This document shows, one piece after another, positions 19,054 to 39,580 of a stretch of 57,153 nt of DNA. A program made the translations under genes and the position numbers. Below the pieces are notes generated by a model that did no database searches, was not told where the DNA came from, and saw only the letters and a program-made list of their open reading frames with translations. Within the stretch, counting starts at the first letter, position 1, and every line of letters begins with the position of its first letter. This DNA is from Ignavibacteria bacterium (GTDB taxonomy: Bacteria; Bacteroidota; Ignavibacteria; Ignavibacteriales; Ignavibacteriaceae): NCBI GenBank assembly GCA_021286645.1, contig JAJTBZ010000072.1, forward strand, positions 1-57,153, in the 5' to 3' direction.

Positions 19054-20253
19054 GTGAAATTTCAGATGTTAAGTACTATGAGAACCAGAGTCCTGATACT
19101 AATCCTCCTATGCAGTATGGCCGCGTACCCGCAAAAAGATACCAGCGGAAGCCTGAATGCATTAGTTACCTATGTAGTGAGTAAAATGCCCGGTATGGGG
19201 GCAAATGCCTTCATCGTGCCCACGAATACCGAACTTTCAGTTTTTGCCAGTTCATTTAGTTTTATTGCTTCAAAAAATTACGCTCCCGTTACCGGCATGG
19301 TAGCCGCGTACGGTTATAGTTTTTATAAATTTTACGATGTAAATGTCAGAGATACTTTTTACGTTCTAAAAGAAAATGTTCCTGTCCAAAGAGGGTGGGG
19401 GACGTATATCTATTGTGCCTCCTCTCAAAACAATTTAATGATTGAAATTCCTCATCCGCTTTGGGATAAAAACACGTGGGATGTTGGTATCAGGACGTTT
19501 TTGGCAACAAAGGCACGCTGGTACTCGCTTTCGGGTACGCACAGGTATTGCAATACCGATTCATCCTCTGATGTTGCACACGAAACTCAGACGGTGTTTT
19601 ATAAATCGCATCAGACCATTGCCTGCCCATTGGCAGTACAGCCGCATGGTTTTGATGGAACAGACGCAACATACAGCGGTTACCCGGATGTTGTTATCAG
19701 TAATGGCACCAAAACACCCGTTACATTACATTATACCGTACGTGACGCGTACGTAGCAGCCGGATTTACCGCGGGTGTATTTAGCACGTCAACGTATTCT
19801 TCGTTAAATAAGCTTGGGGCCACCACAAATGTTGAAGGGCAGTGGTCGAACGCCAACGGGAAAACGTTTGTCCATATCGAACATGATTACCCGCTTCGTA
19901 AGGATACAGCAGCGGTACGAAAAACATCCAACATACTGATTGGAATCTTTTCATTATCCAACGCTGTAACAGATCAGCCAATGCATGCTGCTTCATTTAC
20001 ACTTCATCAAAACTATCCTAATCCTTTTAATCCATCTACTACTATAGAATATTCGTTGCCGGAAGCAGGCAATGTAGTGGTTGAGCTCTATAATAGCATT
20101 GGGCAGAAGATTAAGGATCTTACACGTGGGCTGCAGTTAAGCGGTACCCATAAAATTACCTTGTCGGCACAGGGGCTGTGCAGCGGTATATACCTCTGCC
20201 GGGTGCAGTTTCAGGGTTCGCAAAGAACTATCAAATTAAATATCATTAAATAA
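19054..20253 (+). CDS. Secreted N-formylglutamate-amidohydrolase-like enzyme with T9SS sorting domain
   Basis: First gene of the accessory cluster. GTG start with AAGGA about 9 bases upstream; signal peptide ends near residue 26. Residues about 30-300 form a domain whose motifs are PHPLWDKNT (133-141), GTHRYCN (161-167), a DVAH...FYKSH segment (173-186), QPHGF (196-200), VISNG (214-218) and HIEHDYPLR (274-282). The order of His/Asp/Arg-Asn/His/Glu motifs parallels N-formylglutamate amidohydrolases and the cluster's own gene at 30372 ('IQIE...GLRDN'), so a zinc amidohydrolase is inferred. Residues about 318-399 are the type IX sorting domain, beginning QNYPNPFNPSTTIEYSLP, so the enzyme is exported across the outer membrane. 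A homologous domain is the N-terminus of the gene at 36080. The next gene starts 9 bp downstream. Confidence 0.8.
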   Translation: MKFQMLSTMRTRVLILILLCSMAAYPQKDTSGSLNALVTYVVSKMPGMGANAFIVPTNTELSVFASSFSFIASKNYAPVTGMVAAYGYSFYKFYDVNVRDTFYVLKENVPVQRGWGTYIYCASSQNNLMIEIPHPLWDKNTWDVGIRTFLATKARWYSLSGTHRYCNTDSSSDVAHETQTVFYKSHQTIACPLAVQPHGFDGTDATYSGYPDVVISNGTKTPVTLHYTVRDAYVAAGFTAGVFSTSTYSSLNKLGATTNVEGQWSNANGKTFVHIEHDYPLRKDTAAVRKTSNILIGIFSLSNAVTDQPMHAASFTLHQNYPNPFNPSTTIEYSLPEAGNVVVELYNSIGQKIKDLTRGLQLSGTHKITLSAQGLCSGIYLCRVQFQGSQRTIKLNIIK

Positions 20254-20262
20254 TCACTAACA

Positions 20263-22131
20263 ATGATGTACGGTATGAATTCACTTAAAGCTACAAAATA
20301 CCTGGTTCTTATGAGCCTGCTTTCCGGCTGTTTGCTGTTGTTGGCGGGTTGTAACCCATTTCTCGATGACGGCATAACCGATGCCTCGGCAGTGCAGAGT
20401 AAAGGCTATTTTTATGTGACCGATCAAACGTCTTACTCGCTAATTATGTACGATTACAATATGGCCGAAATACAGCGCTGGGCTTTAGACAGCATTGTAG
20501 CAGGCTCTACCGTACAAGGCGCTACATTTGACGGCAAGAATATATGGCTGGCGTTTTCGAATCCGTCATACAGAATTTTTAAAGTACAGATAGATTCAAC
20601 GGGCAAATCATTAAAATGGGTCGATTCAATTAAGGCACCACCATCGGGTAAGGGCACTAACAGAGGTATAGCATGGGATGGCCAGTATTTATGGGCATTG
20701 AACAGCGGATCGACAACCTATAGCTATTCACCAAGTTTATATAAGATTGATGTAGCGACAAAATCCGTACTAGCCACATACGTTCTGCCTTCAGGCGAAC
20801 CACGCGCGCTCACTTTTGTTAATCCCGTTAACGATGTTTACGGCAAGGGGCCCCGCAAAGGTTTATATTACACCGATATTGAAAAGAAAATGGTGTATTA
20901 CTTCTCCACCGAACGCCCGTATTTTGATACGGCATTTTCTGCCCCTGAACCGCCCCTGGGTCAATATTATGTATATCCCACCGGTGTTGCCAGTGACGGG
21001 CAGAAATTCTATGTGATTAACAGCAGCGACGCTGCCGATAACTTTTTCCGCCTGGATTATACCGGTCGGCCTGAATCACGGCACGATTTCTTCAAGGTTG
21101 AGCACCCGGGTGCAATGTTCTGGAGCAGTGTTGATATCAGAACAATAATGGGTGTAGTAACTATTAACGGATGCGCGCCGGCAAAGGGCGCTGCCGGAGC
21201 AAAAATTGAAGTAGATATCACCGGTTCAGGCTTCAAGAGCAGCGGAGTAACGGTTGATTTTGGCGCGAATATTACCGTTGATTCGGCAAAAGTAATCGAT
21301 GTTACCCGTATTCATGCATACCTGAATATTGCTTCATCTGCAACCCTGGGTAAGCGATCAATAAGCGTTACCGTAAGTGGTGTAAAGGCAACACTTACCG
21401 ATGGTTTTGAAGTTACCTCTGTTCCTTTAACAGAATATCTGTACTTCGCAGATCAGAATATGAACAGGGTATATCAGTTACGGATTGAAGATACCGTGAT
21501 AGTTGGTTACTGGAGTACAAAATTAGTTTCTGCCGGTAGTATTCAGGGACTTGCCTATGACGGGCACGATTTCTGGATTACCTGTTCCGGAAGTGATAAG
21601 AGTATCTACAAAGTTACCTTCCCTGTCGGCGATACAAATGCTGCAAAAGTTGCCGGTTCAACCTCAATCTCTCTGGCAGTTTCGGCCGGAACCGTTCGCG
21701 GCTTAACATGCTACAACGGCTATTTATGGCAAACTGCAAGCGGTACACCGAATGGAAAATTATACCGTGCTAACCCCGATTCGGCTACCGTGATGGAATT
21801 TGCAACCGCAATGAGTGCAGAGCCGCGAGGTATTTGTTTTGTTGGTCAACGTTTGCTTTCCGTTGATAATAAGAATAAAACTGTCTCAGAATTCAGTACA
21901 AGTTCATTTACCTGGAACACGATATTTACGATTCCTTCAACAAACGGCGCGCAATTCCCAACGGGTCTATCGTATGATGGCACAAATCTGTGGGTTGCCA
22001 ACAGCAGTACGAATATGGATTTGCTTGAAAAGTTTTCAGTAACAGGAACCCTTATCGGCTATATTGATATCAAACGCGGTCCTATTACCTATGACCCTTC
22101 GATAACCGGTTTAATCTACATAGCAAAGTAA
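20263..22131 (+). CDS. Beta-propeller/IPT-TIG lipoprotein, probable surface ligand-binding protein
   Basis: Lipoprotein signal with lipobox LLAGC (Cys30). The body has two similar beta-propeller-like regions (about 40-290 and 400-622), each built from blades with the pattern GxxxDGxxLWxxxSG, e.g. GIAWDGQYLWALNSG, GLAYDGHDFWITCSG and GLSYDGTNLWVANSS. They flank an IPT/TIG Ig-like domain (about 300-385, GSGFKSSGVTVDFG). The repeats recall glutamine-cyclotransferase-like or SMP30-type propellers, but no catalytic residues can be assigned. Placed between the secreted hydrolase (9-bp gap) and the porin gene (12-bp gap), it may be the outer-membrane binding partner of the porin, analogous in role to SusD. 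That role is inference. Confidence 0.75.
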   Translation: MMYGMNSLKATKYLVLMSLLSGCLLLLAGCNPFLDDGITDASAVQSKGYFYVTDQTSYSLIMYDYNMAEIQRWALDSIVAGSTVQGATFDGKNIWLAFSNPSYRIFKVQIDSTGKSLKWVDSIKAPPSGKGTNRGIAWDGQYLWALNSGSTTYSYSPSLYKIDVATKSVLATYVLPSGEPRALTFVNPVNDVYGKGPRKGLYYTDIEKKMVYYFSTERPYFDTAFSAPEPPLGQYYVYPTGVASDGQKFYVINSSDAADNFFRLDYTGRPESRHDFFKVEHPGAMFWSSVDIRTIMGVVTINGCAPAKGAAGAKIEVDITGSGFKSSGVTVDFGANITVDSAKVIDVTRIHAYLNIASSATLGKRSISVTVSGVKATLTDGFEVTSVPLTEYLYFADQNMNRVYQLRIEDTVIVGYWSTKLVSAGSIQGLAYDGHDFWITCSGSDKSIYKVTFPVGDTNAAKVAGSTSISLAVSAGTVRGLTCYNGYLWQTASGTPNGKLYRANPDSATVMEFATAMSAEPRGICFVGQRLLSVDNKNKTVSEFSTSSFTWNTIFTIPSTNGAQFPTGLSYDGTNLWVANSSTNMDLLEKFSVTGTLIGYIDIKRGPITYDPSITGLIYIAK

Positions 22132-22143
22132 AGGAGAAGGAAA

Positions 22144-23421
22144 ATGAGAACTTATAAACATGTTTATTTCGTAATAGCGTTGGTAATACTTTGCTCGGTA
22201 ACCCCGGTACAGGCCCAGGTGACTCTTGATGGAGAATTCAGGATTCGCTGGTACAGTGATGTTTACGAATGCACACGGGATGCCCGTGATAAAGAAAATT
22301 ACATGCGGGTATTTGCCCGCATGCATTCACTCTGGAAAGCTTCGGATATTGCCAGCGTGAATATGGAAATGGCAACAGTAACAGAAAACCCCAATTCACC
22401 CACCCGAAACATTTCCGGTACCGGTGTGTATAAATATGCTATAACCCAGTTATATGCAGAATTGAATAAAACTGATTATTGGGGACTTGACGCTATACGC
22501 CTTCGTGCCGGTCGTCAGCAATTCCAGATCGGTAATGGCCTGGTTATGGGCGAGTCGAATTACTATATCGACCGCTTTGACGGGGCCCGGGTTGATTTAG
22601 CCTACGATAAGTTCACCCTAACCGGTTTTGGCGCAATTTATGGCCAGAATGTTAGCGCGAGCGGTTTATATCCCGATCCGGGCAGCGACCAGATCTACGT
22701 GGTTAAAGCAGGTGCGGAAGTTGAAAAACAAGAGCTTATGGCTTATTACCTGGTAGATAAACCACGTGGTGATTATAACGATTATTACATACTTGGCGGT
22801 GGTGTTGCTTCCAGCCTTATGAAAGGTCATCTTGAATATTTTGGCGAATTCGCTTATCAAAAATTCAATACTCCCGATGGCGCTCCGAAAAAACATGGTA
22901 TAGGTTATATGGCCGGAGTTGCATACCGTTTTGCATGGGGGCCGTTCAAATCAATAAAGGTTGAAACAAAATATGCTGCAATGCAGGGAGACGATAGTAC
23001 AACAGCTGACCAGGAAATTTTCAGCCCCCAATTCCCTAACTTTTTCTGGGGCGAGCGTACCGGTTACGCTAACGGTGTTGCCGGCGGCGATTACCCATAT
23101 CATCAGAAGAATCTTGAAGGCTGTAGAATTTGGTACAGCAGAATTTATTTTGTTCCGAAAATCGCGCCAAAAGTTCGCCTGCAATTCCAGTACACGAACG
23201 TGAATGAGTACAAAAACAATGATGGCTATAATTCAATGGATGATGAATTAGCAGTAAAGTTATATTACACGTTTTCATCCAATGTACAGGCACAGTTCAG
23301 ATATGGAAGGGTACTTGCAAAAGATTCTGATTACGATCCACAGAAAACAAACGTGGTTACATCCAGCAAGGACCGTTATGATATGAATAGATATATGTTC
23401 GATTTACAAATTCAGTTTTAA
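22144..23421 (+). CDS. Outer-membrane porin (alginate-export-like beta barrel)
   Basis: Excellent ribosome site (GGAGAAGGAAA). Signal peptide of about 25 residues ending VQAQ, then a 400-residue barrel of alternating aromatic and polar strands. Typical segments are IRLRAGRQQFQIGNGLVMGE and DGARVDLAYDKFTLTGFGA, matching the alginate_exp/phosphate-selective porin style where an RxGRQ strand is followed by an IDRFDG loop. The C-terminus ends in an aromatic (LQIQF), as expected for BAM-dependent barrels. It should let the cluster's small products cross the outer membrane. It is part of the 19054-25880 gene run. Confidence 0.85.
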   Translation: MRTYKHVYFVIALVILCSVTPVQAQVTLDGEFRIRWYSDVYECTRDARDKENYMRVFARMHSLWKASDIASVNMEMATVTENPNSPTRNISGTGVYKYAITQLYAELNKTDYWGLDAIRLRAGRQQFQIGNGLVMGESNYYIDRFDGARVDLAYDKFTLTGFGAIYGQNVSASGLYPDPGSDQIYVVKAGAEVEKQELMAYYLVDKPRGDYNDYYILGGGVASSLMKGHLEYFGEFAYQKFNTPDGAPKKHGIGYMAGVAYRFAWGPFKSIKVETKYAAMQGDDSTTADQEIFSPQFPNFFWGERTGYANGVAGGDYPYHQKNLEGCRIWYSRIYFVPKIAPKVRLQFQYTNVNEYKNNDGYNSMDDELAVKLYYTFSSNVQAQFRYGRVLAKDSDYDPQKTNVVTSSKDRYDMNRYMFDLQIQF

Positions 23422-23436
23422 TAATTCTACGGTAAT

Positions 23437-24705
23437 ATGTCTACAGAATTGATAGTTTTAATAGTAATGTTAGTTACGTTCGTTGCCGGGGTATTCATAC
23501 TCCGGCTGCCTTCGGGTGTTACCCTTGCATTAAGCGCGCTGTTAGGAGCATTGGCAGGCGGCGAGGGCATACCCATACGGCATTTGGTTGAAGGCAGCAT
23601 TGCATTTCTCGATCCGATATTGATTGTTTTTACCGCGATGGTATTCATGAAAGTCGTTGATGCAACAGGTGCATTGGCCTCGATAAATTACACGCTTATA
23701 AAAAGGCTGCACCGCTTTCCTACGCTGTTATTCATATTGATTGTATTTTTTATCATGTTCCCCGGAATGCTTACGGGTATTTCATCGACGTGTATCCTGA
23801 CAACAGGCGCCTTGGTTGCCCCGGCATTACTCGCGATGGGAGTACCTGCAACGGCAGTAGGAGCCTTTCTGGCAATGGGAGCGGTACTTGGTATGATTGC
23901 CCCGCCCATTAATTTGCCGGTAATGATTATAGGCGGCGGTGTGGATATGCCCTATATTGGTTTCGAAAAGCCGCTTTTGTTAGCCACGGTACCCACTGCA
24001 ATTTTAACTGCTTTGTATTACCGTGTACGCTACCTGCGCAAATTTGATATCAATGAAGTACTTGCAAAGTTGCCGGAATCAGTGTATCCGGAATATGGAT
24101 TCAAATTATTCCTCCCGATTATTTTCGTTGTGGGGTTCATGGTAATAGTTCGCGTATTCGCGAAATTTATCCCTGATATTGGCATCCCGTTAATCTTTTT
24201 AATTGGTGCACTTGCGGGATTTGGAACCGGAAAAAAATTCAAACTTGATGATATATTCAAAAAATCATTAAATGACTCGCTGCCTGTACTTGGTATATTG
24301 GTAGGTGTAGGTATGTTTGTTCAGGTTATGACCTTAACCGGCGTGCGGGGGTATATTGCAACAGCATTACTGCAATTACCACAGGCGTATTTATACCCGG
24401 CCATAGCGGTTATTATGCCGGCTTTTGGATCTGCTTTCACCGCCTCATCGGTTTTAGGTGTGCCGTTGGTATATGTATTCCTCGGTACGAATGAAATTGT
24501 TGTTACATCGGCGCTCACGCTTATTGCCGGTATTGGCGATCTGATGCCTCCTCCATCTCTTTTGCCAATATTCGCGGCGCAAATAGTTGGTGAAGAAAAT
24601 CATTTCCGGGTATTAAAAAAATGCACTATACCAATTATACTTTCATTAATCGTAGGCGTACTAATGATAATCTTTGCCCGCGATATTGGAATACTACTCG
24701 GATAA
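23437..24705 (+). CDS. DctM-like (TRAP large-subunit-type) permease
   Basis: Integral membrane protein of 422 aa with about 12 segments, the size and pattern of TRAP-transporter large permeases. Diagnostic stretches are GMLTGISSTCILTTGALVAP and the re-entrant APPINLPVMIIGGG with PYIGFEKPL, repeated in the second half as FGSAFTASSVLGVPLVY and GDLMPPPSLLPI. TRAP permeases carry carboxylates and amino-acid-like anions. No DctP-type receptor and no usual DctQ small subunit is encoded next to it; instead a 48-residue membrane protein follows 30 bp later. Glutamate or a related dicarboxylate as substrate is inferred from neighbours only. The ribosome site is weak, and coupling to the porin gene 15 bp upstream is likely. 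Confidence 0.85.
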   Translation: MSTELIVLIVMLVTFVAGVFILRLPSGVTLALSALLGALAGGEGIPIRHLVEGSIAFLDPILIVFTAMVFMKVVDATGALASINYTLIKRLHRFPTLLFILIVFFIMFPGMLTGISSTCILTTGALVAPALLAMGVPATAVGAFLAMGAVLGMIAPPINLPVMIIGGGVDMPYIGFEKPLLLATVPTAILTALYYRVRYLRKFDINEVLAKLPESVYPEYGFKLFLPIIFVVGFMVIVRVFAKFIPDIGIPLIFLIGALAGFGTGKKFKLDDIFKKSLNDSLPVLGILVGVGMFVQVMTLTGVRGYIATALLQLPQAYLYPAIAVIMPAFGSAFTASSVLGVPLVYVFLGTNEIVVTSALTLIAGIGDLMPPPSLLPIFAAQIVGEENHFRVLKKCTIPIILSLIVGVLMIIFARDIGILLG

Positions 24706-24735
24706 CACATAAGGATCAGACAGGTAGAATATACT

Positions 24736-24882
24736 ATGCTTCATATAATTTATATACTTATTACACTCGTGCTGGGCGTTTATATTGTTCGGCAGTTATT
24801 CACTGAAGGCGAATGGAGAAAGCAGGTAGCGCTGGCAATACTCCTTATTCCCGTCATTTTACGCGTTCTTCACATTAAATAA
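24736..24882 (+). CDS. 48-residue membrane microprotein next to the permease
   Basis: Short frame with ATG at 24736, stop TAA at 24880-24882, and AGGT about 10 bases upstream. The product has two hydrophobic helices (about residues 3-19 and 30-45) joined by a charged turn (TEGEWRKQ), consistent with a helical hairpin. It sits 30 bp after the DctM-like gene and 17 bp before the racemase gene, so it is tightly embedded in the run. I infer a small accessory subunit taking the place of, or degenerate from, DctQ. A chance frame is unlikely given the spacing and hydrophobic pattern. Confidence 0.65.
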   Translation: MLHIIYILITLVLGVYIVRQLFTEGEWRKQVALAILLIPVILRVLHIK

Positions 24883-24899
24883 CAGAATCTGAATTGATT

Positions 24900-25880
24900 A
24901 TGCAAAATGCTAAAATACTTCTTGCTGCAATTTTCTTAACACTACTACCTGTGCAGGCAGGGAATATTTCTGATGTTATTGTTAAAACACTTCAGAACAA
25001 AGAGAATGTAAAGATACTTGTTACCGATTCCGGTTTAGGCGGCTTATCGGTTGCGGCAGAAATCGATTCGATTTTAGTTGCCAATCACATTTTTCAAAAT
25101 GCAGAAGTTATCTTTTTTAATGCGTTACCCGATGCCGCATTCCGGTATAACTCGCTGCCCGATGTAGCAGCCAAGGCAAAAGTGTTCAGTTCATCTTTGG
25201 ATGCCATGGAACAGGGATACAAACCTGATATTATTCTTATTGCATGCAACACGCTTTCTGTTGTATATCCGTATACGGAATTCGCGCGTAAGAGTACAAT
25301 ACCGGTAGTAGGTATTGTTGAAATGGGTGTATCTGCTGTTAAGGATAGCCTTGAAAGGCACCCGGAAGCAAAAGCATTAATACTTGGAACGGAAACCACA
25401 ATCAGCTCGGATGCACATAAACAGGGACTTGTGGCGGCAAAAATTGATGCGGGCAGAATAATGACCGAAGCCTGTCCTAATCTGGAAACAGAAATTCAGG
25501 CTAATCCCGAAAGTGATATAGTTAGTAATTTGATAGATTTTTATCTTGATGAGCTAACCGATAAAGGCGCGAAGAAAGAAGACAAAGTGTATGCAGCTCT
25601 TTGCTGCACTCATTACGGGTATGCTGCAGCGTCATTCGCCCGGAAGCTGAATTCAATGTTCGAGACAGTATGCCTGGTTAACCCGAACAGAATTATGGCG
25701 GCTGCATTCACGAAGTTTGACGCAGGAAAATTTCCCCGGGGCTCAGTACGCTGCACGGTAGTTTCACAGGCTGAATTAGCTTCTGATGAAATTAACAGTA
25801 TCGGGAAATTGATAAAAACCGTTTCACCTGAAGCGGCAAAACAGTTAGAGAACTATAAGAAAATCAGTTGGAAATATTAA
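24900..25880 (+). CDS. Exported glutamate/aspartate racemase homologue (MurI family)
   Basis: The family interconverts L- and D-glutamate with two catalytic cysteines. All key elements are present: TDSGLGGLSV near the N-terminus, IACNTLS with the first Cys (about 116), GTETTISS, and ALCCTHYG with the second Cys (about 236). Unlike cytoplasmic MurI, the protein begins with a clear signal peptide (MQNAKILLAAIFLTLLPVQAG, here given as a Lys-hydrophobic core-VQAG), which places it in the periplasm. ATG at 24900 is preferred over the in-frame TTG at 24894. A periplasmic racemase would convert D-glutamate released from a polymer or from peptidoglycan into L-glutamate for uptake. It is last in the 19054-25880 run. 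Confidence 0.88.
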   Translation: MQNAKILLAAIFLTLLPVQAGNISDVIVKTLQNKENVKILVTDSGLGGLSVAAEIDSILVANHIFQNAEVIFFNALPDAAFRYNSLPDVAAKAKVFSSSLDAMEQGYKPDIILIACNTLSVVYPYTEFARKSTIPVVGIVEMGVSAVKDSLERHPEAKALILGTETTISSDAHKQGLVAAKIDAGRIMTEACPNLETEIQANPESDIVSNLIDFYLDELTDKGAKKEDKVYAALCCTHYGYAAASFARKLNSMFETVCLVNPNRIMAAAFTKFDAGKFPRGSVRCTVVSQAELASDEINSIGKLIKTVSPEAAKQLENYKKISWKY

Positions 25881-25893
25881 TATTATGAGTTAA

Positions 25894-26033
25894 CACCCTC
25901 CCTCAATGAACATTGCGGACTCTTGTATTAATGAAGGAAGAAGTCTGTAAAGAATTCGTATGATTTGGCTATGTGTGGCAGATTTCTTTTGAAAAATACG
26001 AGATGTTCCGCAATGGTTCTTTATAAAAGGGTG
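25894..26033. repeat. 140-base imperfect long hairpin upstream of the solenoid gene
   Basis: Nested complementary blocks: CACCCT (25894-25899) with AGGGTG (26028-26033); GAACATTGCGGA (25908-25919) with TCCGCAATGGTTC (26007-26019, one bulge); CTC..GTATT (25920-25929) with AATACGAG (25995-26002); AAGAAGTCTG (25938-25947) with CAGATTTCTT (25979-25988, one G-U). Internal loops are small. It could be a structured leader or terminator, or a MITE-like palindrome. Confidence 0.6.
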
Positions 26034-26122
26034 ACAAGTTTTAATAAAGTGGTTATACAGTACTATACAGCTGTAAAACCGTTCACTACATCAGTTACAC
26101 AAATGAATCGAAAGGTGCATTT

Positions 26123-30358: not shown

Positions 30359-30371
30359 AAAGGTAAAGCGA

Positions 30372-31292
30372 ATGAATATGAAAACTCTTGTAACTATACT
30401 CTTATTGTGTGCTGCTATTGCCGGATGTACGCTCGCGCGTGATTACGAATCGGGGAAAACGTACTATGGCCGTCATAATTTTATTGAATACTGGCCAGGT
30501 ACCCTGCCAATTGTTATTTCTGTGCCGCATGATGGAAAATTAAAACCCGATGAAATACCGAACAGGCATGCCTCAACACGGGCCGATGTTTTTACACAGG
30601 ATATCGCGCTGAAAGTTCGCGAGTATTTTTACGAAAAATTTCACCAGTACCCGCATATTATCATCAATCAATTACACCGCAGTCGTCTGGATGCCAACCG
30701 CAATGTAGAAGAAGCTGCAGCCGGCAACGATCTGGCTAAAGAAGCCTGGGAAGACTATCATCACTTTATTGAGTATGCTTCTTCGGTAGTTGCAAATGAA
30801 TATGGCAAAGGATTATACATTGATCTTCATGGTCATCATCATGATATTCAGCAATTGGAATTAGGATATTTATTAGCTCCCGAAGAGTTGCAATTACCCG
30901 ATTCATTGTTGAATACCGATTATTTTATTGAAAAGAGCAGTATCCGGCACATGGTGCGTAATACCGTTGAGCCGTTAACATTCATGGAAATAGTTCGTGG
31001 GAAAAAATCGCTTGGCGCCATGTTCGTGCAGCATGGCTATCAGGCCGTACCCTCACCCGATTTTGAAACGCCTCCAACCGAGGATTTATACTTCCCCGGA
31101 GGATATGATACATACCGTCACGGGTCGTCAGGGTCCGGGGTAATAGACGGGATTCAGATAGAAACAAATATTAAAGGTTTACGCGATAACGCGGGCAATA
31201 TAGCCAGGTTCGCGAAAACAATGACTGATGTTGTAACAGAATATCTCCAGACGTATTATTTTACGAATAAAGAATTAAAACGATTACCCTAA
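30372..31292 (+). CDS. N-formylglutamate amidohydrolase-like lipoprotein
   Basis: Lipobox IAGC (Cys19) predicts a periplasm-facing lipoprotein. The domain shows the phosphorylase/hydrolase-fold signature of N-formylglutamate amidohydrolases: SVPHDG (His53), ADVFTQDIA (acidic about 77), RSRLDANR (103-110), YHHFI (129-133), DLHGHHHD (151-158) and IQIETNIKGLRDN near the C-terminus. In HutG-type enzymes these residues hold the zinc and bind the glutamate carboxylates. An extracytoplasmic, membrane-anchored version suggests hydrolysis of N-acyl-glutamate or a glutamyl amide before import. It follows a structured 108-bp gap and precedes the gamma-glutamyltranspeptidase gene by 60 bp. Confidence 0.85.
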   Translation: MNMKTLVTILLLCAAIAGCTLARDYESGKTYYGRHNFIEYWPGTLPIVISVPHDGKLKPDEIPNRHASTRADVFTQDIALKVREYFYEKFHQYPHIIINQLHRSRLDANRNVEEAAAGNDLAKEAWEDYHHFIEYASSVVANEYGKGLYIDLHGHHHDIQQLELGYLLAPEELQLPDSLLNTDYFIEKSSIRHMVRNTVEPLTFMEIVRGKKSLGAMFVQHGYQAVPSPDFETPPTEDLYFPGGYDTYRHGSSGSGVIDGIQIETNIKGLRDNAGNIARFAKTMTDVVTEYLQTYYFTNKELKRLP

Positions 31293-31352: not shown

Positions 31353-33341
31353 ATGAAAAGACATAGTTTCTTCACACAGAGCGCGAACAGGTTTTATGCA
31401 ATACTGTTTGTACTTTTACTCACATTTTCAGGCGGCCTCTACGCGCAGAATGAAAAGAGTGTATCCAGTAAAGAAGGGATGACCGCAACAGCACATCCAC
31501 TTGCAACAAAGGCTGCACAGGAAATGCTATCTAAAGGCGGTAACGCGGTTGATGCCGCGGTGGCTGCAGCGTTTGCTATTGGCGTTGTTGAACCTGACGG
31601 TTCAGGCCTTGGCGGCGGCGGCGGAATGGTAATCTACCTGAATAAATTAAAAAAATCTGTCTTTATCAATTATTATCAGTGTGCCTCGAAGGATGTAGCG
31701 AATTCTACATTTAAGTTAAATGTAGATAAAAATAACGCGAAAACCATTTTAGTGCCCGGAACTACAGCCGGCTTATTGGCCGCATTGGAAAAATATGGTA
31801 CATTGCCCCGATCCGTCGTTCTGGGGCCTGCAATCAGATACGCTAAAGAAGGCTATCCAATCGACGAAACCTTATCAAAGATCATCCTTGATAATTCCAC
31901 TTCGCTTCAGGGTTGCAAGGCTACGGCAGCTAACTTTTTACCGGAAGGTTTCCCCTTAGGACAGGGTGATACTTTACGTCAACCGGAACTTGCTGTTACA
32001 TTAACAAAGATTTCCGATTTGGGCAAAAAAGGCTTTTATGAAGGCGATGTCGCTAAACAAATTGTAGACGAGGTTAATGCTGAAGGTGGAGTAATGACCA
32101 TGGAAGATCTCAGTGGTTATGAACCGGTAATCAGCGAACCAGTTCGCGGCAGTTATCGTGGGTATACAATTTTAAGTACTCCCGCGCCTCTTTCAGGCAC
32201 TTCAGTTTTAGAAGCTCTTAACATTGTTGAGAATGTTGATCTGGGATCGTGGGGCCATTTTAGCACTTCGGCGAAATCGTTGCATTTGTTGGCAGAAACA
32301 TTTAAACGGGTTTCTTCAGACAGAAGCTCGTATCTTGGCGACCCCCGCTATAGTACCATTCCTACTAAGGGACTGCTTTCGAAAGATTTCGCGAAAGATC
32401 GTTTCGCCAGTATTGATCTGACTGCCGTTAATCCACCGAGGAACGCCGATGTAAAATCGGGTAACGTGCAATTATATAATAAGACGGCACCGAAACAAAA
32501 ACCGGTAGAAGCAAAAGAGAAATCGGTTAAACAGCAGGTGGATGCTGCTGATGACGTTGATGATAACGACAATGATATTAACAGTTCTTCACAAAAGAAT
32601 AAGAACCCGCGGTTCGATTACTGGGGAAAACAAAAAGTAAAATCGACTGGCAATCCGGTGAATGTTACCGAGCCGGAAGTTAAAGATACTTCTGACAAAG
32701 TTAATGATCAGGATAAACTGGAATCGTTGTTAAATACAGAGAATAATCAGGAATTAACCGCATTAACTGAACCGATCTTCGAAGGCGGTCATACAACCCA
32801 TTTATGCGTTGCTGACAAAGAAGGTAATATGGTTTCGTTAACGCAAACATTAGGAAATTTCTTCGGATCGGGTGTGAGTGCTGCAGGAGTATTATTGAAT
32901 AATGGAATGGTGAATTTTTCTGCTAATTCGGACAAGAATAAAATTGAGCCGGGTAAACGTCCACGTAGTTCAATATCACCGACCATTATTCTCGATAAAG
33001 AAGGTAAACCCTGGATTGCAATAGGCAGTCCCGGAGCAGGAAGAATTATTCCTACCGTAGCACAACTCATTATGAATATTATTGATTTTAAGATGAGCAT
33101 AAACGATGCGAATCTCGCGCCCCGCATGTACAGCCAGAAATTTGATGAAAACCTGTACGTCGAAAGCCGTGTTACCCCTCAGGTACGTGAAACTCTCGAA
33201 AAGATGGGACATAAAGTTGTTGTGTATGGCGATTTCGATTTGTTTTTCGGCGGCGCGCAAATAATTATGTTTGATAGTGCAACCGGATTATTCTACGGTT
33301 CGGCAGATCCCCGGAGAGGCGGTACAGCCGGAGGAGATTAG
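31353..33341 (+). CDS. ggt: Exported gamma-glutamyltranspeptidase with a long acidic insert and altered donor pocket
   Basis: N-terminal-nucleophile enzyme that cleaves gamma-glutamyl bonds. Signal peptide ends about residue 31. Family motifs are present: GMTATAHPLATKAAQ, GGNAVDAAVAAAF, LGGGGGMV, the autoprocessing/nucleophile segment GHTTHLCVAD (nucleophile Thr481), GNMVSLTQTL, RPRSSISPTII and the oxyanion-like GSPGAGRI. Two oddities: the residue matching the alpha-carboxylate-binding Arg of E. coli GGT (DFRE) is Tyr108 (NYYQ), and an insert of about 100 residues (371-477), rich in Lys, Asp and Asn, lies just before the cleavage site. The length of 662 aa reflects the insert (580 is usual). 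It ends the gene run, closed by a strong terminator at 33366-33412. Confidence 0.9.
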   Translation: MKRHSFFTQSANRFYAILFVLLLTFSGGLYAQNEKSVSSKEGMTATAHPLATKAAQEMLSKGGNAVDAAVAAAFAIGVVEPDGSGLGGGGGMVIYLNKLKKSVFINYYQCASKDVANSTFKLNVDKNNAKTILVPGTTAGLLAALEKYGTLPRSVVLGPAIRYAKEGYPIDETLSKIILDNSTSLQGCKATAANFLPEGFPLGQGDTLRQPELAVTLTKISDLGKKGFYEGDVAKQIVDEVNAEGGVMTMEDLSGYEPVISEPVRGSYRGYTILSTPAPLSGTSVLEALNIVENVDLGSWGHFSTSAKSLHLLAETFKRVSSDRSSYLGDPRYSTIPTKGLLSKDFAKDRFASIDLTAVNPPRNADVKSGNVQLYNKTAPKQKPVEAKEKSVKQQVDAADDVDDNDNDINSSSQKNKNPRFDYWGKQKVKSTGNPVNVTEPEVKDTSDKVNDQDKLESLLNTENNQELTALTEPIFEGGHTTHLCVADKEGNMVSLTQTLGNFFGSGVSAAGVLLNNGMVNFSANSDKNKIEPGKRPRSSISPTIILDKEGKPWIAIGSPGAGRIIPTVAQLIMNIIDFKMSINDANLAPRMYSQKFDENLYVESRVTPQVRETLEKMGHKVVVYGDFDLFFGGAQIIMFDSATGLFYGSADPRRGGTAGGD

Positions 33342-33365
33342 TCCTTCAGTTTATATTCTGAGCTT

Positions 33366-33412: not shown

Positions 33413-33478
33413 AATAACCGGCAATAAAGCATTGAGCGACCCGATAAAAAAAATTATGGAAATGAATGACTCTTGCTG

Positions 33479-33501
33479 TAGTTTTGTACAATACAAAACT
33501 A
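33479..33501. promoter_or_regulatory. Perfect 10-bp palindrome just upstream of the ribosome site
   Basis: TAGTTTTGTA (33479-33488) and TACAAAACTA (33492-33501) are perfect inverted repeats with a 3-base CAA spacer. It ends 4 bases before the GGGGAG ribosome site of the gene at 33516. It could be a repressor operator or an RNA hairpin controlling translation. Confidence 0.5.
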
Positions 33502-33515
33502 ACGGGGAGAGCGAT

Positions 33516-36083
33516 ATGAATCGTTTTTGTTCATTTTTGCTGGTTAGTCTGTTATGTACAGGGGAAGCGCTTCACGGGCAAGCCGTCTCTGCTCAGAGCG
33601 GGGAGTGGAATAATCCGCTTACATGGCAGGGAGCCGCAATACCAACATCTTCAGATAATGTAACCATTTCAGATACCCATACAATCAGTATAGATTCAGC
33701 AGTAAGTTGTAAGTCGCTTGGCTTCAGTGGTAATGATGCGCATATAGCATTTACTGCCTCCGCGGGCTGCCTGAATATATATGGTAATATGACATTTTAT
33801 TCAGGCTCGCATCAACCATTCTCTTATTGGGCAGATGGAGCAAGAGTACGGTTTACCGGCTCTGAACAAAATCAGTTGCTGAGTAACTGGAATACTGCCG
33901 GTACAAATGCTTTACGGTTGATAGAAGTGGATAAAAATTCGGGTACCGTAATTACTTCCGGGCAGAACCTGCGATTTTGTTTTTCCGATACACTTCATAT
34001 TATTAATGGAACCTTTGATCTGGCCAATTCTGATGATATAGAAACCCGTTCTGTCAGCGGTGCCGCATCAAGGGGTTACGTAATTGTCGAGTCGGGCGGG
34101 AAATTTATTATTCGCGGGGGAACAACATATTTCCGGCGGGGGGCATTTACCATACCCGATTCAGCCCGTTCGGGTATGTGGCTGATTAGGGGAGCGGTGG
34201 AAATGGCCACCAAGAGTTCAAGCCGACTGAATATGGATAGCATCGTGGTTGATAGTGGAGGCATGGTAACCATAATGAACGGGTGGAATACCGGTCTTTT
34301 GAATTCCCGCTTCTTTCATGTAAAAGCAGGCGGTAAGTTGCAAACCTACCCTGCGGGGAACGTATGGTACGCGGGCTCACGGGTTCAGGCAGATTCCGGC
34401 TCAAGCACAGTGGTATATGGCTCACCCGTCGACTTCCCTTCGGGTAGCATTTTTAATGGGATATTTGAGTATGGTGCTGAAGGTTTTCAGCAGCTTGCCC
34501 AATCTGTTACAAGTTATGGACTTTTACGGTTTACCGGCAGTGGAACCAGGCAGCTAAGCGCGGGCATTTACATAAATCAGGGATGCCAGATAGGCGGCAG
34601 CGCACAGGTGGACGCGAATATCTATCAAATGAATTACAGTCCCAACGCCAGCCTTGAATATAATTCGGCTACAACAGCACAAAATATTTCATTCAATGAA
34701 TTACCGGCTACTGGCAGTCCGGGAATTCTGATAATTAACAATACAGTGGGTGTGCAATGCACTGTACCGGTTCGCGTTAGTAAGAAACTGGATTTGCGAA
34801 ACGGGCTTTTTCAAAATTCAGCCAATACACTTATAATGAGTCAGGGAGCCATACTTAACAGGACTCGATCGGGTTCCATTTCAATGCCCCCTGCGTGGGC
34901 AGGCGGCGTAAATATCATTTATGATTGTGCTGATTCTGCAACTATCGAAACCGGAAATGAGATTCCGGCAAACGGGAGTGTTGATACGTTTAGAATGGCA
35001 GGCACCGGATCTGTAAAGTTAAATAAAAATATTTCGGTGCAGGCAGCCTGCTCGATGAGCGGTAAGGGCATTGTAACGGGCGATTATATGCTTTCGTTAA
35101 ATGGAACCTCGGGAATAGAAGTGGAATCAGAGAGTACGCGGATACGAGGCCGGGCAGAGTATTCTCTTTCGGTGAATAATACCCCGGCTATCAATGCACT
35201 TGGTGCAATAATTACCGGGGAGCAGCTACCATATCAATTGCACGTCCTTCGAACAGATACCATGTGCGCGGGCATCACTGCAATTTCAGAAATTTGGTCA
35301 ATTGATTACAGCAGCACAAAAGCCGATGAGCCAAATACATTGTATATAGGTTGGTATAAAGATGTGGATAATGGTCTGCAATGGTCCCCGGGAAATCGGG
35401 CGGTATGTTTATATAGCAGCGACAACGGAGTAACATGGCAAAGAACGGGGGAGGCAACTGAAATTACGGGCTCCGGTATTCGTAAAGTCAAAGCCGGTGT
35501 TCCCCGAAGCGGGTTATATACGGTGACTGACGAGAATCACCTGGAAAGAAAATACACATTATTGGTGCATGCAATGATTGAGGGCTTCTGTGAATCGGGT
35601 AAATGTATTCCCGATACTTTGCAGATAGAACTCCACGATTGTCAGTCGAATGAAATAGCCGCTATATCGCGTTCGCTTGCAGATTCCGCGGGGCAGGTAG
35701 TATGTACTTTTACAAATTTAATACAAAGCAGGGGGTACTATGTTGTTGTTCGGCATAGAAACGCGCTCGAGACATGGAGCGCGCAGCCAATTCAGTTTAC
35801 CGGCTATAGTGCCGAATATAATTTTACCACGGGCAGAGGTAAGGCTTTTGCTGATAACATGAAAGAAGTTGATGGTATTAGCTATATTTACGCGGGAGAT
35901 GTAAATCAGGATGGGGCAGTAGATTTTAATGATATGGTAGCAATCGATAATGATTCTTACAATTACGTTACCGGGTATGTCGCCTCGGATATTAACGGAG
36001 ATGGCAGTGTTGATTTTCTTGATATGATAATTTGCGATAATAATTCTTTTAATTACAGACAAATACAAAGACCGTTCAAATGA
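33516..36083 (+). CDS. Secreted G8/beta-solenoid protein with dockerin-like C-terminus
   Basis: ATG at 33516 follows GGGGAGAG; the frame is open further upstream but without a ribosome site. Signal peptide MNRFCSFLLVSLLC...HGQ. A G8-like domain (SGEWNNPLTWQGAAIP; TISDTHTISID) is followed by about 500 residues of beta-solenoid repeats homologous to the protein at 26123. The C-terminal 150 residues form an Ig-like module (GFCESGKCIPDTLQIELHD; VVVRHRNALETWSA) and two dockerin-type calcium repeats (DVNQDGAVDFNDM, DINGDGSVDFLDM) instead of a T9SS sorting domain. The stop overlaps the start of the next gene (ATGA), so the two are cotranscribed. Confidence 0.85.
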   Translation: MNRFCSFLLVSLLCTGEALHGQAVSAQSGEWNNPLTWQGAAIPTSSDNVTISDTHTISIDSAVSCKSLGFSGNDAHIAFTASAGCLNIYGNMTFYSGSHQPFSYWADGARVRFTGSEQNQLLSNWNTAGTNALRLIEVDKNSGTVITSGQNLRFCFSDTLHIINGTFDLANSDDIETRSVSGAASRGYVIVESGGKFIIRGGTTYFRRGAFTIPDSARSGMWLIRGAVEMATKSSSRLNMDSIVVDSGGMVTIMNGWNTGLLNSRFFHVKAGGKLQTYPAGNVWYAGSRVQADSGSSTVVYGSPVDFPSGSIFNGIFEYGAEGFQQLAQSVTSYGLLRFTGSGTRQLSAGIYINQGCQIGGSAQVDANIYQMNYSPNASLEYNSATTAQNISFNELPATGSPGILIINNTVGVQCTVPVRVSKKLDLRNGLFQNSANTLIMSQGAILNRTRSGSISMPPAWAGGVNIIYDCADSATIETGNEIPANGSVDTFRMAGTGSVKLNKNISVQAACSMSGKGIVTGDYMLSLNGTSGIEVESESTRIRGRAEYSLSVNNTPAINALGAIITGEQLPYQLHVLRTDTMCAGITAISEIWSIDYSSTKADEPNTLYIGWYKDVDNGLQWSPGNRAVCLYSSDNGVTWQRTGEATEITGSGIRKVKAGVPRSGLYTVTDENHLERKYTLLVHAMIEGFCESGKCIPDTLQIELHDCQSNEIAAISRSLADSAGQVVCTFTNLIQSRGYYVVVRHRNALETWSAQPIQFTGYSAEYNFTTGRGKAFADNMKEVDGISYIYAGDVNQDGAVDFNDMVAIDNDSYNYVTGYVASDINGDGSVDFLDMIICDNNSFNYRQIQRPFK

Positions 36084-39000
36084 TGAAAAAACTATGTTTC
36101 ATGTTAGTATGTATGTACGGGGTAGTGTGTGCTCAGACAACGGTAACAGGCGATCTTTCGGCATATATCAGTACATATATCGGCAATATTCCCGGTGAAG
36201 GAACAAATCTGTATATTTCGCCGTCAACTAGTCAGTTAACCACCTGGGGAAGCGCGCTTACTAACATAATACAGGGAAATTACAGCAACGCGAATACGGT
36301 GGCAGCCGGCATAGGATACGAGGTAGTAAAGTACATCGATAATTCGGTATCGCCCAATAAGACCTATTATGTAATGCGGAAAACAACAGCCAGTACCAAC
36401 TATTGGGGGTTGTTAGTGTTTAACCCGGCACCAGTGAGAGCTAAGCTTGCAATTATGTCGCCTCACCCTCTGCATGATATGAACACGGGGCAGCAAGGTT
36501 TTTATATTTTTGAAAATGTCGGAGCCAGGCTCTTTATGGTAGCGGGGGCGCATCGGTGCAACGCTACTGACTCTACTACGTGCGATGGCACTACAGACGC
36601 GTGCAGTGACGATTTGCGTAAATATAAAATCTCAGATCAATGTCATAATGTAAATTCATCGTTCCAGCGGACTACAGAAATACTTTTATCTACGTACCCG
36701 AACATGATTTTCTTTCAGCCGCATGGATTTTCACGAGATACGGGTGACCCGTACCTGATCATCAGTAACGGAACACGGAAAAAACCCGCGACCGATTATG
36801 CCATGAAAATTTGGAATAAACTACAGGATATCGATAATACCTTAACGGCAAAGATTATTCATATAGATTCTTCATGGACAAAACTTACAGCAACCAATAA
36901 TACACAGGGGCGCTTAATTAATGGCAGCAGCGATCCCTGCGATATTAATCCCGGTTCCTGCAATGGCAGGTTTATTCATATTGAACAGGCCTATACAGGG
37001 TTACGCGACAATCAAACAAATTGGAAGAAGCTATCCGACGCGATAGCGCAGGCATTCCCTCCTGCCTCAACCGTTAGTTCCGGGAATTGGTCAACTGCCG
37101 ATATCTGGATGGAAGCACAGGCGCCCCAGAGCAATGATGATGTTGAAATTAATGAGAATCATACAGTAACTGTAACAACATTAGTTGATTCATGCAGGAA
37201 TCTTTCATTCGCTGCCGAAACGGCTAAATTGAGTTTTGGTGCATCTTCTATACTGAATGTTACCGGCGACGTTACTTTAGCATCTACGAGGCATCAGGCA
37301 ATAGGTTCCTGGAATAGTACTGCGCAAATGAAATTTACCGGCAGCGCGTTACAGACCCTGACCGGCTGGGCCCCGGATACTATCACCACACCTTTAATGA
37401 ATGTGATAATAGATAAATCCGCCGGTGCGGTTACTACTGATGGTACAGGAATGTACCTGGGATTGGGAAATAGCCTCGATATTGTGAATGGAGGATTTAT
37501 TCTTGCTCCGAACGATAATATTTACGGGCATGGAATAACCGGTTCGCCGGTAGCAACTACAATTACCGTGAGGGCCAACGGCGTGTTTTGGGCCGATAGC
37601 GGTACCTCGACAATTCGGAAAGGTTTTACAACGGATACTGTTGCATCGCGTATAGGGAAACTTACTATATATGGAAAAGCCTATATCTCCACTGCCGATT
37701 CAGCGAAAAAATACAATTTCGGAAATATCGATGTTGAGTCCGGAGGCGAATTTATTTTTTCGGGCGGATGGAAACCAACCGGATTTAACCCGGGAATTTT
37801 TACTGTTAAAAGCGGCGGTACCCTAACCAATACAACCACATCGAGTTTGTGGCATTCTACCGCGTATCTCACACTGCTTGCCGGTTCTAAATTGTATATC
37901 AGCAGTTCAACTATTTCGCTTCCTTCACAATTGAATTGCAGCGCCGATACAGTTGAGTATTTCCGCAGCACAACAACCAGTACGATGTCCAATAAAATTA
38001 CTACGTTTAATAGTCTGATACTTTCCGGCACGGTAGCAAAAACACTCGCTGCCAATATTACGGTAAACGGTACACTGGTAGTAAAAGGCGCGGCATTTGT
38101 CTCAGGTTCCGGGTATAAACTGAGTTTCGGCAGTAATGGAACTTTGTATTACAATAATCCGGATGCTGCACAGACAACGGCCGATGCAGAATTTCCCGCT
38201 ACGAGCGGACCGAAGAATGTAACATTTAACAACTCGCGAGGAGTTACGCTTCATGCAGCCCGAACAATTAATGGAACGCTTTCACTTCTTTCGGGCACGT
38301 GTACAAATGCATCTGCAAAGAATATAACTTTAGGAGCGGGTGCCACAATTCGCCGCGCCAGCGGTGCGCAGTTGGCAATTGCCCCGGTGTTTGGCAGCAG
38401 TGTAAATCTCGACTATTGCAATACTGCCGCTACAGTAACAACGGGCGTGGAAATGCCTGCGACCACAACTATTCTCGCTAATCTTTCACTTAGTGGTACT
38501 CAGGCAGTAACGTTAGGTGCAAATGCCACGGTCAATGGTCAGGTAACGCTCTCATCATCTGTCCTGAACACCGGTTCATATACTCTTACATTCAGTTCGA
38601 CCGCTTCCTCACCAATTGAAACCACGACGGGTTATATTTATGGAACGTCACTTATGAGTACAGGGGCAGTAGGAACTGGTAGTTTAAGTATGCTGGGTGC
38701 TACGGTAACCGGTACGGCTAATTTAGGCAACTGCACGCTTACACGCGTTACCGGTCAGGCAGTAAGTGGAGGAAGCAATTCTTCTGTTGCAGCGGTATGG
38801 AAATTAACATCTTCTGTATCCGGTCCGTATTCCGGCAGAACTATTGGTATATCATGGCCCCAGTCGCTCGATAACGGTAAAACGTTTACTACTACGAACA
38901 GGGCGCTTACCTGGTATTCGGCTAATAGTGGCAGTTCATGGTCTCCCGTAGGTTCGTACACCGATGTATCTGCATCGCAGATCAGAGCAATTTCGGCACC

Positions 39001-39580
39001 ACTGACCAATGCTTTCTGGTTCACCGCGAGCGACTCGCTGCATCCCCTAATGCCAATGGTAAGCGCACGTGTACTCGTTGAGGGGCTCTGGGATGGAACG
39101 ACAATGAAGGCGGATACAATAACTGCCGAGCTGCATTCGGCACAAAGCCCGTATAATGTACTATCAACTGCACAGGCTGTTACTAATACCGATGGAACGG
39201 TTCTCTTTCCTTTCGCTGCATTGCCTGCTCAGAATGTGTATATCGTCTGTAAGCACCGCAATAGTATTCCCGTTTGGAGCGCCGTTGCTGTAACTCCGGC
39301 AAATCAATTGGCCGGCATGAATTACGCCGATGTGAGCACCAATACTTACGGCAATAACGCGGTGGGTAAAGGCGGTAAATTCTGTATGAAAAGCGGCGAT
39401 GTCAACCAGGATGGAATTGTGAATTTCTATGATATGATGGCGGTTGACAATGATATATACAACCGGGTATCGGGTTATGTTGCAACTGATCTGAATAACG
39501 ACGGCGTAGTTGACTTTAGCGACATGCTGATAGTTGATAACAACTCACTGAACTATGCCGAGATAAAGCAGCCCCAGTAA
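36080..39580 (+). CDS. Multidomain secreted protein: amidohydrolase-like domain + G8/beta-solenoid + dockerin-like end
   Basis: Large 1166-residue exported protein; signal peptide ends at CAQ (about 19). Residues about 20-330 repeat the enzyme domain of the gene at 19054: PHPLHDMNT (128-136), GAHRCN (156-161), FFQPHGF (211-217), IISNG (227-231) and HIEQAYTGLRDN (300-311). Residues about 335-400 form a G8-like domain (SSGNWSTADIWMEAQAP), then a beta-solenoid strongly similar to the 26123 protein ('GPKNVTFNNSRGVTLHAART' region, cut: GPKNVTFNN, RRASGAQL). The end carries the KHRNSIPVWSA module and two calcium repeats (DVNQDGIVNFYDM, DLNNDGVVDFSDM). It looks like an enzyme fused to the cluster's own scaffold. 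Overlaps the previous gene by 4 bp and abuts the convergent permease gene. Confidence 0.85.
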   Translation: MMKKLCFMLVCMYGVVCAQTTVTGDLSAYISTYIGNIPGEGTNLYISPSTSQLTTWGSALTNIIQGNYSNANTVAAGIGYEVVKYIDNSVSPNKTYYVMRKTTASTNYWGLLVFNPAPVRAKLAIMSPHPLHDMNTGQQGFYIFENVGARLFMVAGAHRCNATDSTTCDGTTDACSDDLRKYKISDQCHNVNSSFQRTTEILLSTYPNMIFFQPHGFSRDTGDPYLIISNGTRKKPATDYAMKIWNKLQDIDNTLTAKIIHIDSSWTKLTATNNTQGRLINGSSDPCDINPGSCNGRFIHIEQAYTGLRDNQTNWKKLSDAIAQAFPPASTVSSGNWSTADIWMEAQAPQSNDDVEINENHTVTVTTLVDSCRNLSFAAETAKLSFGASSILNVTGDVTLASTRHQAIGSWNSTAQMKFTGSALQTLTGWAPDTITTPLMNVIIDKSAGAVTTDGTGMYLGLGNSLDIVNGGFILAPNDNIYGHGITGSPVATTITVRANGVFWADSGTSTIRKGFTTDTVASRIGKLTIYGKAYISTADSAKKYNFGNIDVESGGEFIFSGGWKPTGFNPGIFTVKSGGTLTNTTTSSLWHSTAYLTLLAGSKLYISSSTISLPSQLNCSADTVEYFRSTTTSTMSNKITTFNSLILSGTVAKTLAANITVNGTLVVKGAAFVSGSGYKLSFGSNGTLYYNNPDAAQTTADAEFPATSGPKNVTFNNSRGVTLHAARTINGTLSLLSGTCTNASAKNITLGAGATIRRASGAQLAIAPVFGSSVNLDYCNTAATVTTGVEMPATTTILANLSLSGTQAVTLGANATVNGQVTLSSSVLNTGSYTLTFSSTASSPIETTTGYIYGTSLMSTGAVGTGSLSMLGATVTGTANLGNCTLTRVTGQAVSGGSNSSVAAVWKLTSSVSGPYSGRTIGISWPQSLDNGKTFTTTNRALTWYSANSGSSWSPVGSYTDVSASQIRAISAPLTNAFWFTASDSLHPLMPMVSARVLVEGLWDGTTMKADTITAELHSAQSPYNVLSTAQAVTNTDGTVLFPFAALPAQNVYIVCKHRNSIPVWSAVAVTPANQLAGMNYADVSTNTYGNNAVGKGGKFCMKSGDVNQDGIVNFYDMMAVDNDIYNRVSGYVATDLNNDGVVDFSDMLIVDNNSLNYAEIKQPQ

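Follow-up and report, generated by a model that had tools for sequence, protein, structure and literature searches.

The window analyzed here is one complete contig of 57,153 bp (JAJTBZ010000072.1, C29) from the genome of an uncultured Ignavibacteria bacterium of the order Ignavibacteriales (G000; 3.72 Mb, 108 contigs, 99.02% complete). Between positions 19054 and 39580, it carries a cluster of 12 plus-strand open reading frames (ORFs), named here after their start coordinates, with a widest intergenic gap of 242 bp (25881 to 26122). An original prediction made from the sequence had described this region as a possible system of 12 genes and a microprotein for the utilization of glutamate polymers, with poly-gamma-glutamate (gamma-PGA) as the best substrate guess. 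All of these genes are present, and the microprotein is a real gene of 48 codons (Table 1). Export signals were called by eye on the N termini. A core of the cluster, comprising a permease, an AstE-like hydrolase, a DUF6305 protein and a gamma-glutamyltranspeptidase (GGT), recurs as an accessory module in part of the known range of gamma-PGA systems, and the window shows this module without the synthase.

Table 1. Features of the cluster and of the regulatory genes next to it (T9SS, type IX secretion system; HTH, helix-turn-helix)
Feature	Coordinates	Strand	Basis
NtrC-type response regulator (receiver, sigma-54 activator, Fis-type HTH)	15689..17074	-	Pfam; homologues adjoin the 19054/lipoprotein/porin module in L113, L150
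Histidine kinase, partner of the regulator	17077..18612	-	HisKA, HATPase_c; homologues in L113, L150, L012
Sigma-54 promoter-like site, towards kinase/regulator genes	18743..18758	-	TGGCATTCCGATTGCA
Sigma-54 promoter-like site, towards 19054	18895..18911	+	TTGGTACTTAAGTTGCA
Secreted hydrolase, new family, T9SS sorting tail	19054..20253	+	Fold taken over from the modeled 36080 domain
Putative surface lipoprotein, beta-propeller-like by eye	20263..22131	+	Homologues adjoin the porin in L012, L040, L053, L057, L080, L150, L152
Putative outer-membrane porin, no Pfam family	22144..23421	+	Homologues adjoin the lipoprotein in L012, L040, L053, L057, L080, L150, L152
DctM-like permease, core	23437..24705	+	DctM 21.3 bits (cut-off 23.8)
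Membrane microprotein, 48 residues, candidate small subunit of the permease, core	24736..24882	+	Profile matches, codon-position bias
Exported MurI-like glutamate/aspartate racemase, both catalytic Cys	24894..25880	+	Asp/Glu racemase PF01177 42.4 bits (cut-off 31); TIGR00067 73.8 bits (cut-off 146.65)
Secreted G8-domain protein, T9SS tail	26123..28498	+	G8 38 bits (cut-off 22.9); similar protein at the same place in L040
AstE/AspA-like zinc hydrolase, core	28561..29685	+	AstE_AspA_cat 33.2 bits (cut-off 25)
DUF6305 periplasmic protein, core	29706..30263	+	DUF6305 178 bits
FGase-like exported amidohydrolase	30372..31292	+	FGase 25.1 bits (cut-off 28.9)
Lid-less GGT, altered donor-site residues, core	31353..33341	+	GGT 476 bits; TIGR00066 453.7 (cut-off 357.85)
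Secreted protein, G8- and dockerin-like parts (both weak), uncertain link to the system	33432..36083	+	Dockerin and G8 both below cut-off
Secreted hydrolase domain (FGase/PghP-like fold), long middle part, dockerin-like end	36080..39580	+	Dockerin 23.4 (cut-off 22.9)

Searches of 296 genomes of the phylum recovered DUF6305 in seven genomes at E ≤ 0.001, six of them over the family cut-off. The permease is present in exactly these six (E ≤ 1e-20; Fisher test for co-occurrence with DUF6305, 1e-12, with the 296 genomes taken as independent). The same six are found by the microprotein profile (E ≤ 7.4e-18), together with a partial match in G012 (8e-4). The order permease, AstE-like hydrolase, DUF6305, GGT is retained in all five relatives of the phylum, where three more genes follow the GGT gene. 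In the two loci scanned against NCBIfam, L009 and L012, these genes encode PgsB, PgsC and TIGR04332, a "poly-gamma-glutamate system protein", all over curated cut-offs, and genome searches placed PgsC and TIGR04332 over cut-off in all five relatives. PgsC is rare in the phylum (11/296 genomes). Within the family, DUF6305 occurs in seven of 80 genomes; synthase genes adjoin the block in six of these (G148, G212, G347 and G368, read directly, and G324 and G366, taken as L041 and L048) and are lacking in G000.

Six aligned DUF6305 sequences were compared with genome contigs, and profiles from the six Ignavibacteria clusters were run on the resulting 60 loci. By record name, these loci come from Ignavibacteria, Bacteroidota, Calditrichota, KSB1, Zixibacteria, Acidobacteria, Aminicenantes and Bacillota, and five genomes already in the phylum set are represented again. 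All four core genes lie within 6 kb in 50 of the 60 loci, and many of the remaining loci end at contig edges. Among the 33 loci with long flanks (at least 4.5 kb to the left and at least 6 kb to the right), the permease and the AstE-like hydrolase are found in all 33, the GGT in 32 (L044 lacks it) and PgsB, PgsC and TIGR04332 together in 27. For the six long-flank loci without a local synthase (L084, L085, L090, L093, L094 and L097), PgsC is matched elsewhere in the genome, just below the cut-off in the case of L097. In a check of 22 loci, drawn from the 60 mostly for lacking an adjacent synthase (L040 and L044 do have one), 19 genomes gave a PgsC match, 18 of them over the cut-off.

An alternative arrangement, PgsB-PgsC-TIGR04332-DUF6305-permease-AstE, forms a second set in L044 and L114, and one Bacillota contig carries PgsB-PgsC-TIGR04332-DUF6305. 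Canonical PgsB and PgsC without DUF6305 occur in six genomes of the phylum, and their PgsB sequences group as a single clade in a quickly built tree of 49 sequences (Shimodaira-Hasegawa-like approximate likelihood ratio test, 98). On this tree, the 40 DUF6305-adjacent PgsB sequences require three changes and hence do not group as a single clade. The core marks a subset of gamma-PGA systems. The absence of conserved co-occurrence had been set beforehand as grounds for rejecting the original prediction; instead, co-occurrence is strong, both in the same six of 296 genomes and in the synteny of the 33 loci. The link of the cluster to gamma-PGA is likewise strong, and the substrate guess is strongly supported by it.

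The wider gene set, which had also been proposed as part of one system, recurs around the core without being universal there: within 6 kb of the core in the 33 long-flank loci, the lipoprotein is found four times, the porin five, the FGase-like enzyme 13, the racemase five and the secreted hydrolases 13. In G093 (L150), the racemase, secreted hydrolase, lipoprotein and porin lie at a separate locus with their own divergent kinase/regulator pair, indicating that this surface module can stand apart from the core. In two other loci, TonB-receptor-like, large secreted and PorV-like proteins (called by eye) precede the permease in place of the lipoprotein and porin (L009:506-7167 and L010:12936-19594). 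A protein with a T9SS tail directly follows TIGR04332 at L012:15147-16832 and has a below-cut-off match to the C45 acyltransferase family.

Searches of G000 for PgsB, PgsC and TIGR04332, each in turn, gave no match at E ≤ 0.001 for PgsB and PgsC, and TIGR04332 was not found either. The closest relative among the named records is an Ignavibacteriales metagenome-assembled genome, L040 (74% identity in DUF6305), which appears to belong to the same genus as G000. L040 is collinear with the window from the kinase through the 36080 homologue, after which pgsWCB follows on the opposite strand; in L041, pgsWCB lies after the GGT gene, also on the opposite strand. Both sites are intact within the window contig and occupied by other genes, those after 36080 being ABC-type permease genes by eye. 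The 36080 homologue of L040 is itself spread over several overlapping reading frames (L040:13617-17054), through either assembly error or decay. The downstream genes of the window that were compared with L112 gave no match there, so that downstream synteny lends no support to a clean pgs deletion, which remains a presumed event. Loss of the synthase on the branch of the window is the simplest reading.

The block itself is intact. With L061 as the outgroup, changes on the window and L040 branches number 17/31 for the permease, 23/19 for the AstE-like hydrolase, 12/10 for DUF6305, 54/77 for GGT, 29/21 for the racemase, 40/32 for the porin and 96/85 for the lipoprotein, showing no clear decay on the window branch.

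The enzymes of the cluster were examined individually for features bearing on gamma-PGA. Alignment to Escherichia coli GGT (2e0w) revealed that 31353 lacks the lid loop, as do 64 of the 66 aligned rows (which include the window twice and five genomes twice); the two rows with the loop, L103 and L105, are loci without DUF6305. The N-terminal nucleophilic Thr of the small subunit is kept (T481; 66/66 rows). These features and its export liken 31353 to the lid-less GGTs of Bacillus. However, the standard donor site is altered: where E. coli has R114, N411, D433 and G484, the window has Y, G, N and A, residues that occur in 49, 48, 50 and 45 of the 66 rows, respectively. This differs from the Bacillus enzymes (residues of CapD were not compared), and R, N and D are mostly retained in the Aminicenantes and Clostridiales rows. 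According to a review (PMC8062742), lid-less GGTs accept gamma-PGA, and the D433N or D433N/Y444A/G484A substitutions confer cephalosporin acylase activity on E. coli GGT. Judging from these residues, the cluster GGT may accept gamma-glutamyl groups with a blocked amino group, as inside a gamma-PGA chain. Three loci (L072, L086 and L095) carry two GGT genes each; the position of R114 holds R in one copy and Y in the other, possibly a division between free-amine and blocked-amine donors.

The racemase 24894 falls below the MurI equivalog cut-off. Its catalytic cysteines are conserved (C118 in 20/20 rows; C238 in the 12/12 rows reaching that position), and racemases with signal-like N termini, called by eye, recur (20 rows with the window counted; L012 and L061 are the same genome). 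In the AstE-like set, the metal-site residues H83, E86 and H214 are present in 60/60 rows.

The secreted hydrolase 19054 and the N-terminal part of 36080 share 29% identity and fall in a single family, of which 20 members were aligned; neither matches a Pfam family, PF05908 (PghP) and PF05013 (FGase) included. A model of the 36080 domain (mean predicted local distance difference test score [pLDDT], 93) was compared with known structures. The best neighbors among the top 1000 of Foldseek are the FGase-like 2odf (Z 12.8; 3.1 Å, 177 residues aligned), the N-formylglutamate amidohydrolase 2q7s (Z 11.8; 3.2 Å, 191) and the gamma-PGA hydrolases 3a9l from phage (Z 11.3; 3.6 Å, 167), 21dc (Z 10.7; 4.0 Å, 171) and YndL with PGA, 5onj (Z 10.5; 4.4 Å, 175); the top ranks by Foldseek itself are mixed M14-like and FGase proteins (best E, 1.5e-5). 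The domain thus has a predicted fold akin to that of N-formylglutamate amidohydrolases and of phage polyglutamate hydrolases. It resembles PghP and YndL in this modeled fold, but differs in that the cluster hydrolases lack a Pfam match and are T9SS-secreted, and FGase-like structures score slightly higher. G000 does have a T9SS (SprA, 989 bits). The proteins 33432-36083 and 36080-39580 end in paired dockerin-like EF-hand repeats, as opposed to the T9SS tails on 19054 and 26123, possibly a different way of surface attachment.

Near-invariant residues of the hydrolase family (H111, H140-R141, H197 and E284; numbering of window:36134-37084) resemble the FGase pattern of 30372 (H53, N109-R110, H153 and E264) when paired by eye, and the metal and catalytic residues are conserved across the FGase-like set. 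A profile comparison of the two families matched over a C-terminal stretch only (E 0.0014, probability 18%). The grounds for the proposal that 19054, 30372 and 36080 are amidohydrolases of one superfamily are thus the modeled fold of the 36080 domain, its identity with 19054 and this weak local match; no Pfam match underlies it for 19054 or 36080. Searches of Protein Data Bank (PDB) sequences with profiles of the 36080 domain, FGase-like and TIGR04332 sets returned nothing. The hydrolase family occurs in 20 of the 296 genomes, six with DUF6305 and 14 others; in the six neighborhoods inspected from these 14, no other cluster gene was found nearby. Its frequent occurrence in genomes without a synthase (13/20, plus G000) is similar to that of PghP-like genes outside Bacillales, which are mostly in species without pgsB according to a published survey (PMC4497714).

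DctM is the best family for all 33 permeases scanned (E ≤ 0.01), that of the window lying under the cut-off, and the permease profile gave one weak match among PDB sequences, to a tripartite ATP-independent periplasmic (TRAP) protein (E 0.07). TRAP systems combine DctM with DctQ and a DctP or TAXI protein, and DctM-type permeases import small carboxylates (PMC5812351). DctP gave no match in G000, G148 and G212 (TAXI proteins were not searched), and lies away from the cluster in G224, G240 and G093. DctQ gave no match among four microproteins scanned, no genome-wide search being made. The microprotein is conserved after the permease in other phyla: a profile of ten seeds from the same loci matches 59 of 24,119 ORFs, 51 of them within 200 bp after a permease ORF. 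Four of the other eight start 246 to 858 bp after the permease, three (L042, L114 and L152) have no scored permease there, and one, in L072, scores poorly in a shifted stretch, a good L072 copy having been found separately. In 35 pairs of copies, not independent of one another and each at least 80% identical in protein, differences at codon positions 1, 2 and 3 number 178, 34 and 562. Since they are concentrated at third positions, the microprotein evolves as a coding gene. Its profile gave one chance-level match among PDB sequences (E 0.42). A permease-microprotein fusion suggested by long ORFs in L088, L089 and L098 was dropped, as the matches lie in another reading frame of GC-rich DNA.

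DUF6305 was modeled with a pLDDT of 95; a profile comparison with TIGR04332 gave nothing, as did a PADLOC scan of three proteins. As in TRAP transporters, a DctM-like large subunit is encoded alongside a small membrane protein and a periplasmic protein. Unlike in TRAP transporters, G000 has no DctP, the 48-residue small protein gives no DctQ match, and DUF6305 is predicted to be of a different fold class. A tentative proposal is that the permease, microprotein and DUF6305 could make up a new TRAP-like secondary transporter, assembled from unrelated parts and dedicated to gamma-glutamyl oligomers, which with the GGT and the AstE-like hydrolase would recycle polyglutamate in several phyla and which the bacterium of the window would have turned to scavenging.

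The cluster is preceded by a divergent NtrC-type regulator and its kinase. Such control often serves nitrogen acquisition. Two intergenic sigma-54-like sites were spotted by eye and then pattern-tested: TGGYAYN5TTGCW has two matches in the 57 kb (0.26 expected; 4/100 shuffles reach two), which lie between the kinase and 19054, in a gap of 441 bp, one in each direction, and the stricter TTGGYACN5TTGCA has one (0.02 expected; 2/100 shuffles reach one). L113 has a similar pair in the same kinase gap, and L150 and L012 have one site each, towards the kinase. Looser patterns also match outside the gap (window 17577, L113 12482 and L012 17949), and the first pattern used, TGGC-N8-TTGC, has one match, inside the GGT gene at 31561.

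Taken together, we consider it reasonably probable that the cluster serves the NtrC/sigma-54-controlled processing and uptake of gamma-PGA, here uncoupled from synthesis. From sequence and models we infer the enzyme activities, the order of the steps, the direction of import and the scavenging; import and scavenging are the best-supported roles. Secreted hydrolases 19054 and 36080 would cut the polymer outside the cell, and the fragments would pass the outer membrane through porin 22144, aided by lipoprotein 20263. In the periplasm, the GGT, the AstE-like hydrolase and FGase-like 30372 would trim gamma-linked oligomers, and racemase 24894 would interconvert D- and L-glutamate. The permease, with its 48-residue partner and periplasmic DUF6305, would then import glutamate or short gamma-glutamyl oligomers. 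Most relatives have the core together with the PgsB/PgsC/TIGR04332 synthase, where it presumably recycles or remodels the polymer of the cell itself. As no synthase was found in G000, this organism probably feeds on polymer made by others. The description as a utilization system therefore fits G000, given the missing PgsB, PgsC and TIGR04332 and the NtrC/sigma-54 control. In most relatives, by contrast, the block is coupled to synthesis, so the commoner setting is one in which a cell recycles or matures polymer of its own.

Several observations weigh against this account. PgsC was not found in three other genomes with the core (L055, L091 and L099), whose completeness is not established. The hydrolase family occurs in 14 of the 290 genomes without an over-cut-off DUF6305, only one of which has PgsC. 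The 36080 domain also resembles carboxypeptidases (Z of about 10 to 10.7) and muramoyl-alanine amidases (7rag, Z 10.2; 4rn7, Z 9.7), so its fold is no proof of substrate. A solute-binding fold for DUF6305 is unsupported, the matches being generic alpha/beta ones (best Z 9.7, ribokinase-like). With L041 as the outgroup, the window branch is longer than that of L040 (AstE 54/18, DUF6305 26/12, GGT 111/51, FGase-like 74/17). The more likely cause is that, in these genes, L040 and L041 are nearer to each other than L040 is to the window, so that L041 is probably no true outgroup; the comparison was discarded as a test of relaxation. Finally, the block goes with synthesis in most relatives, which fits a maturation role equally well, and G000 is a 108-contig draft, in which an absent synthase could be an assembly gap.

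The first of these last two points leads to an alternative that we regard as possible though unlikely, in which the core serves maturation, release or surface attachment of the cell's own gamma-PGA: the GGT would pass chains on to an acceptor in the manner of CapD from Bacillus, the permease and DUF6305 would serve synthesis or export, and the window would hold a remnant. The tight linkage to PgsB, PgsC and TIGR04332 and the second arrangement in L114 and L044 agree with this, as does the anchoring role of CapD covered in the GGT review (PMC8062742). A remnant, however, is at odds with a block that is intact and not fast-evolving (L061 as outgroup) in a genome where the synthase was not found; the import of small carboxylates by DctM-type permeases (PMC5812351) and the recurrence of secreted hydrolases and exported racemases around the block also speak for processing and uptake. 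Compared with the Pgs/Cap systems of Bacillus (PgsB, PgsC, PgsA, PgsE; CapB, CapC, CapA, CapE, CapD), relatives of the cluster likewise have a GGT-family enzyme and PgsB and PgsC matches that pass curated cut-offs, but the cluster adds DUF6305, the permease, the microprotein and the AstE-like hydrolase, and the window genome lacks PgsB and PgsC (PgsA/CapA and PgsE/CapE were not searched).

It is rather improbable that the organism is just another producer, with its pgsBCW genes hidden in an assembly gap, which would bear on the scavenging step alone. The fragmentation of the draft (99.02% complete) and the synthase beside the block in the other six DUF6305 genomes of the family would fit such a gap, but the usual pgsBCW positions are intact in the contig with other genes in place, and the separate searches for the three proteins found none. 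Recycling of peptidoglycan stem peptides or other gamma-glutamyl compounds instead of gamma-PGA is very unlikely: enzyme families of this type also act in wall recycling and muramoyl-alanine amidases are among the fold neighbors of 36080, but the core goes with a synthase that is rare, whereas peptidoglycan is nearly universal.

Knowledge of gamma-PGA comes chiefly from Bacillus, and no description of such a cluster was found among open-license PubMed Central papers. The cluster gives DUF6305 and TIGR04332 a testable context and brings in a family of secreted hydrolases that lacks any Pfam match, as well as an unannotated, permease-tied microprotein. It also points to new enzymes that would cut an industrial and capsular polymer, and suggests a route by which bacteria with an outer membrane may recycle or scavenge polyglutamate.

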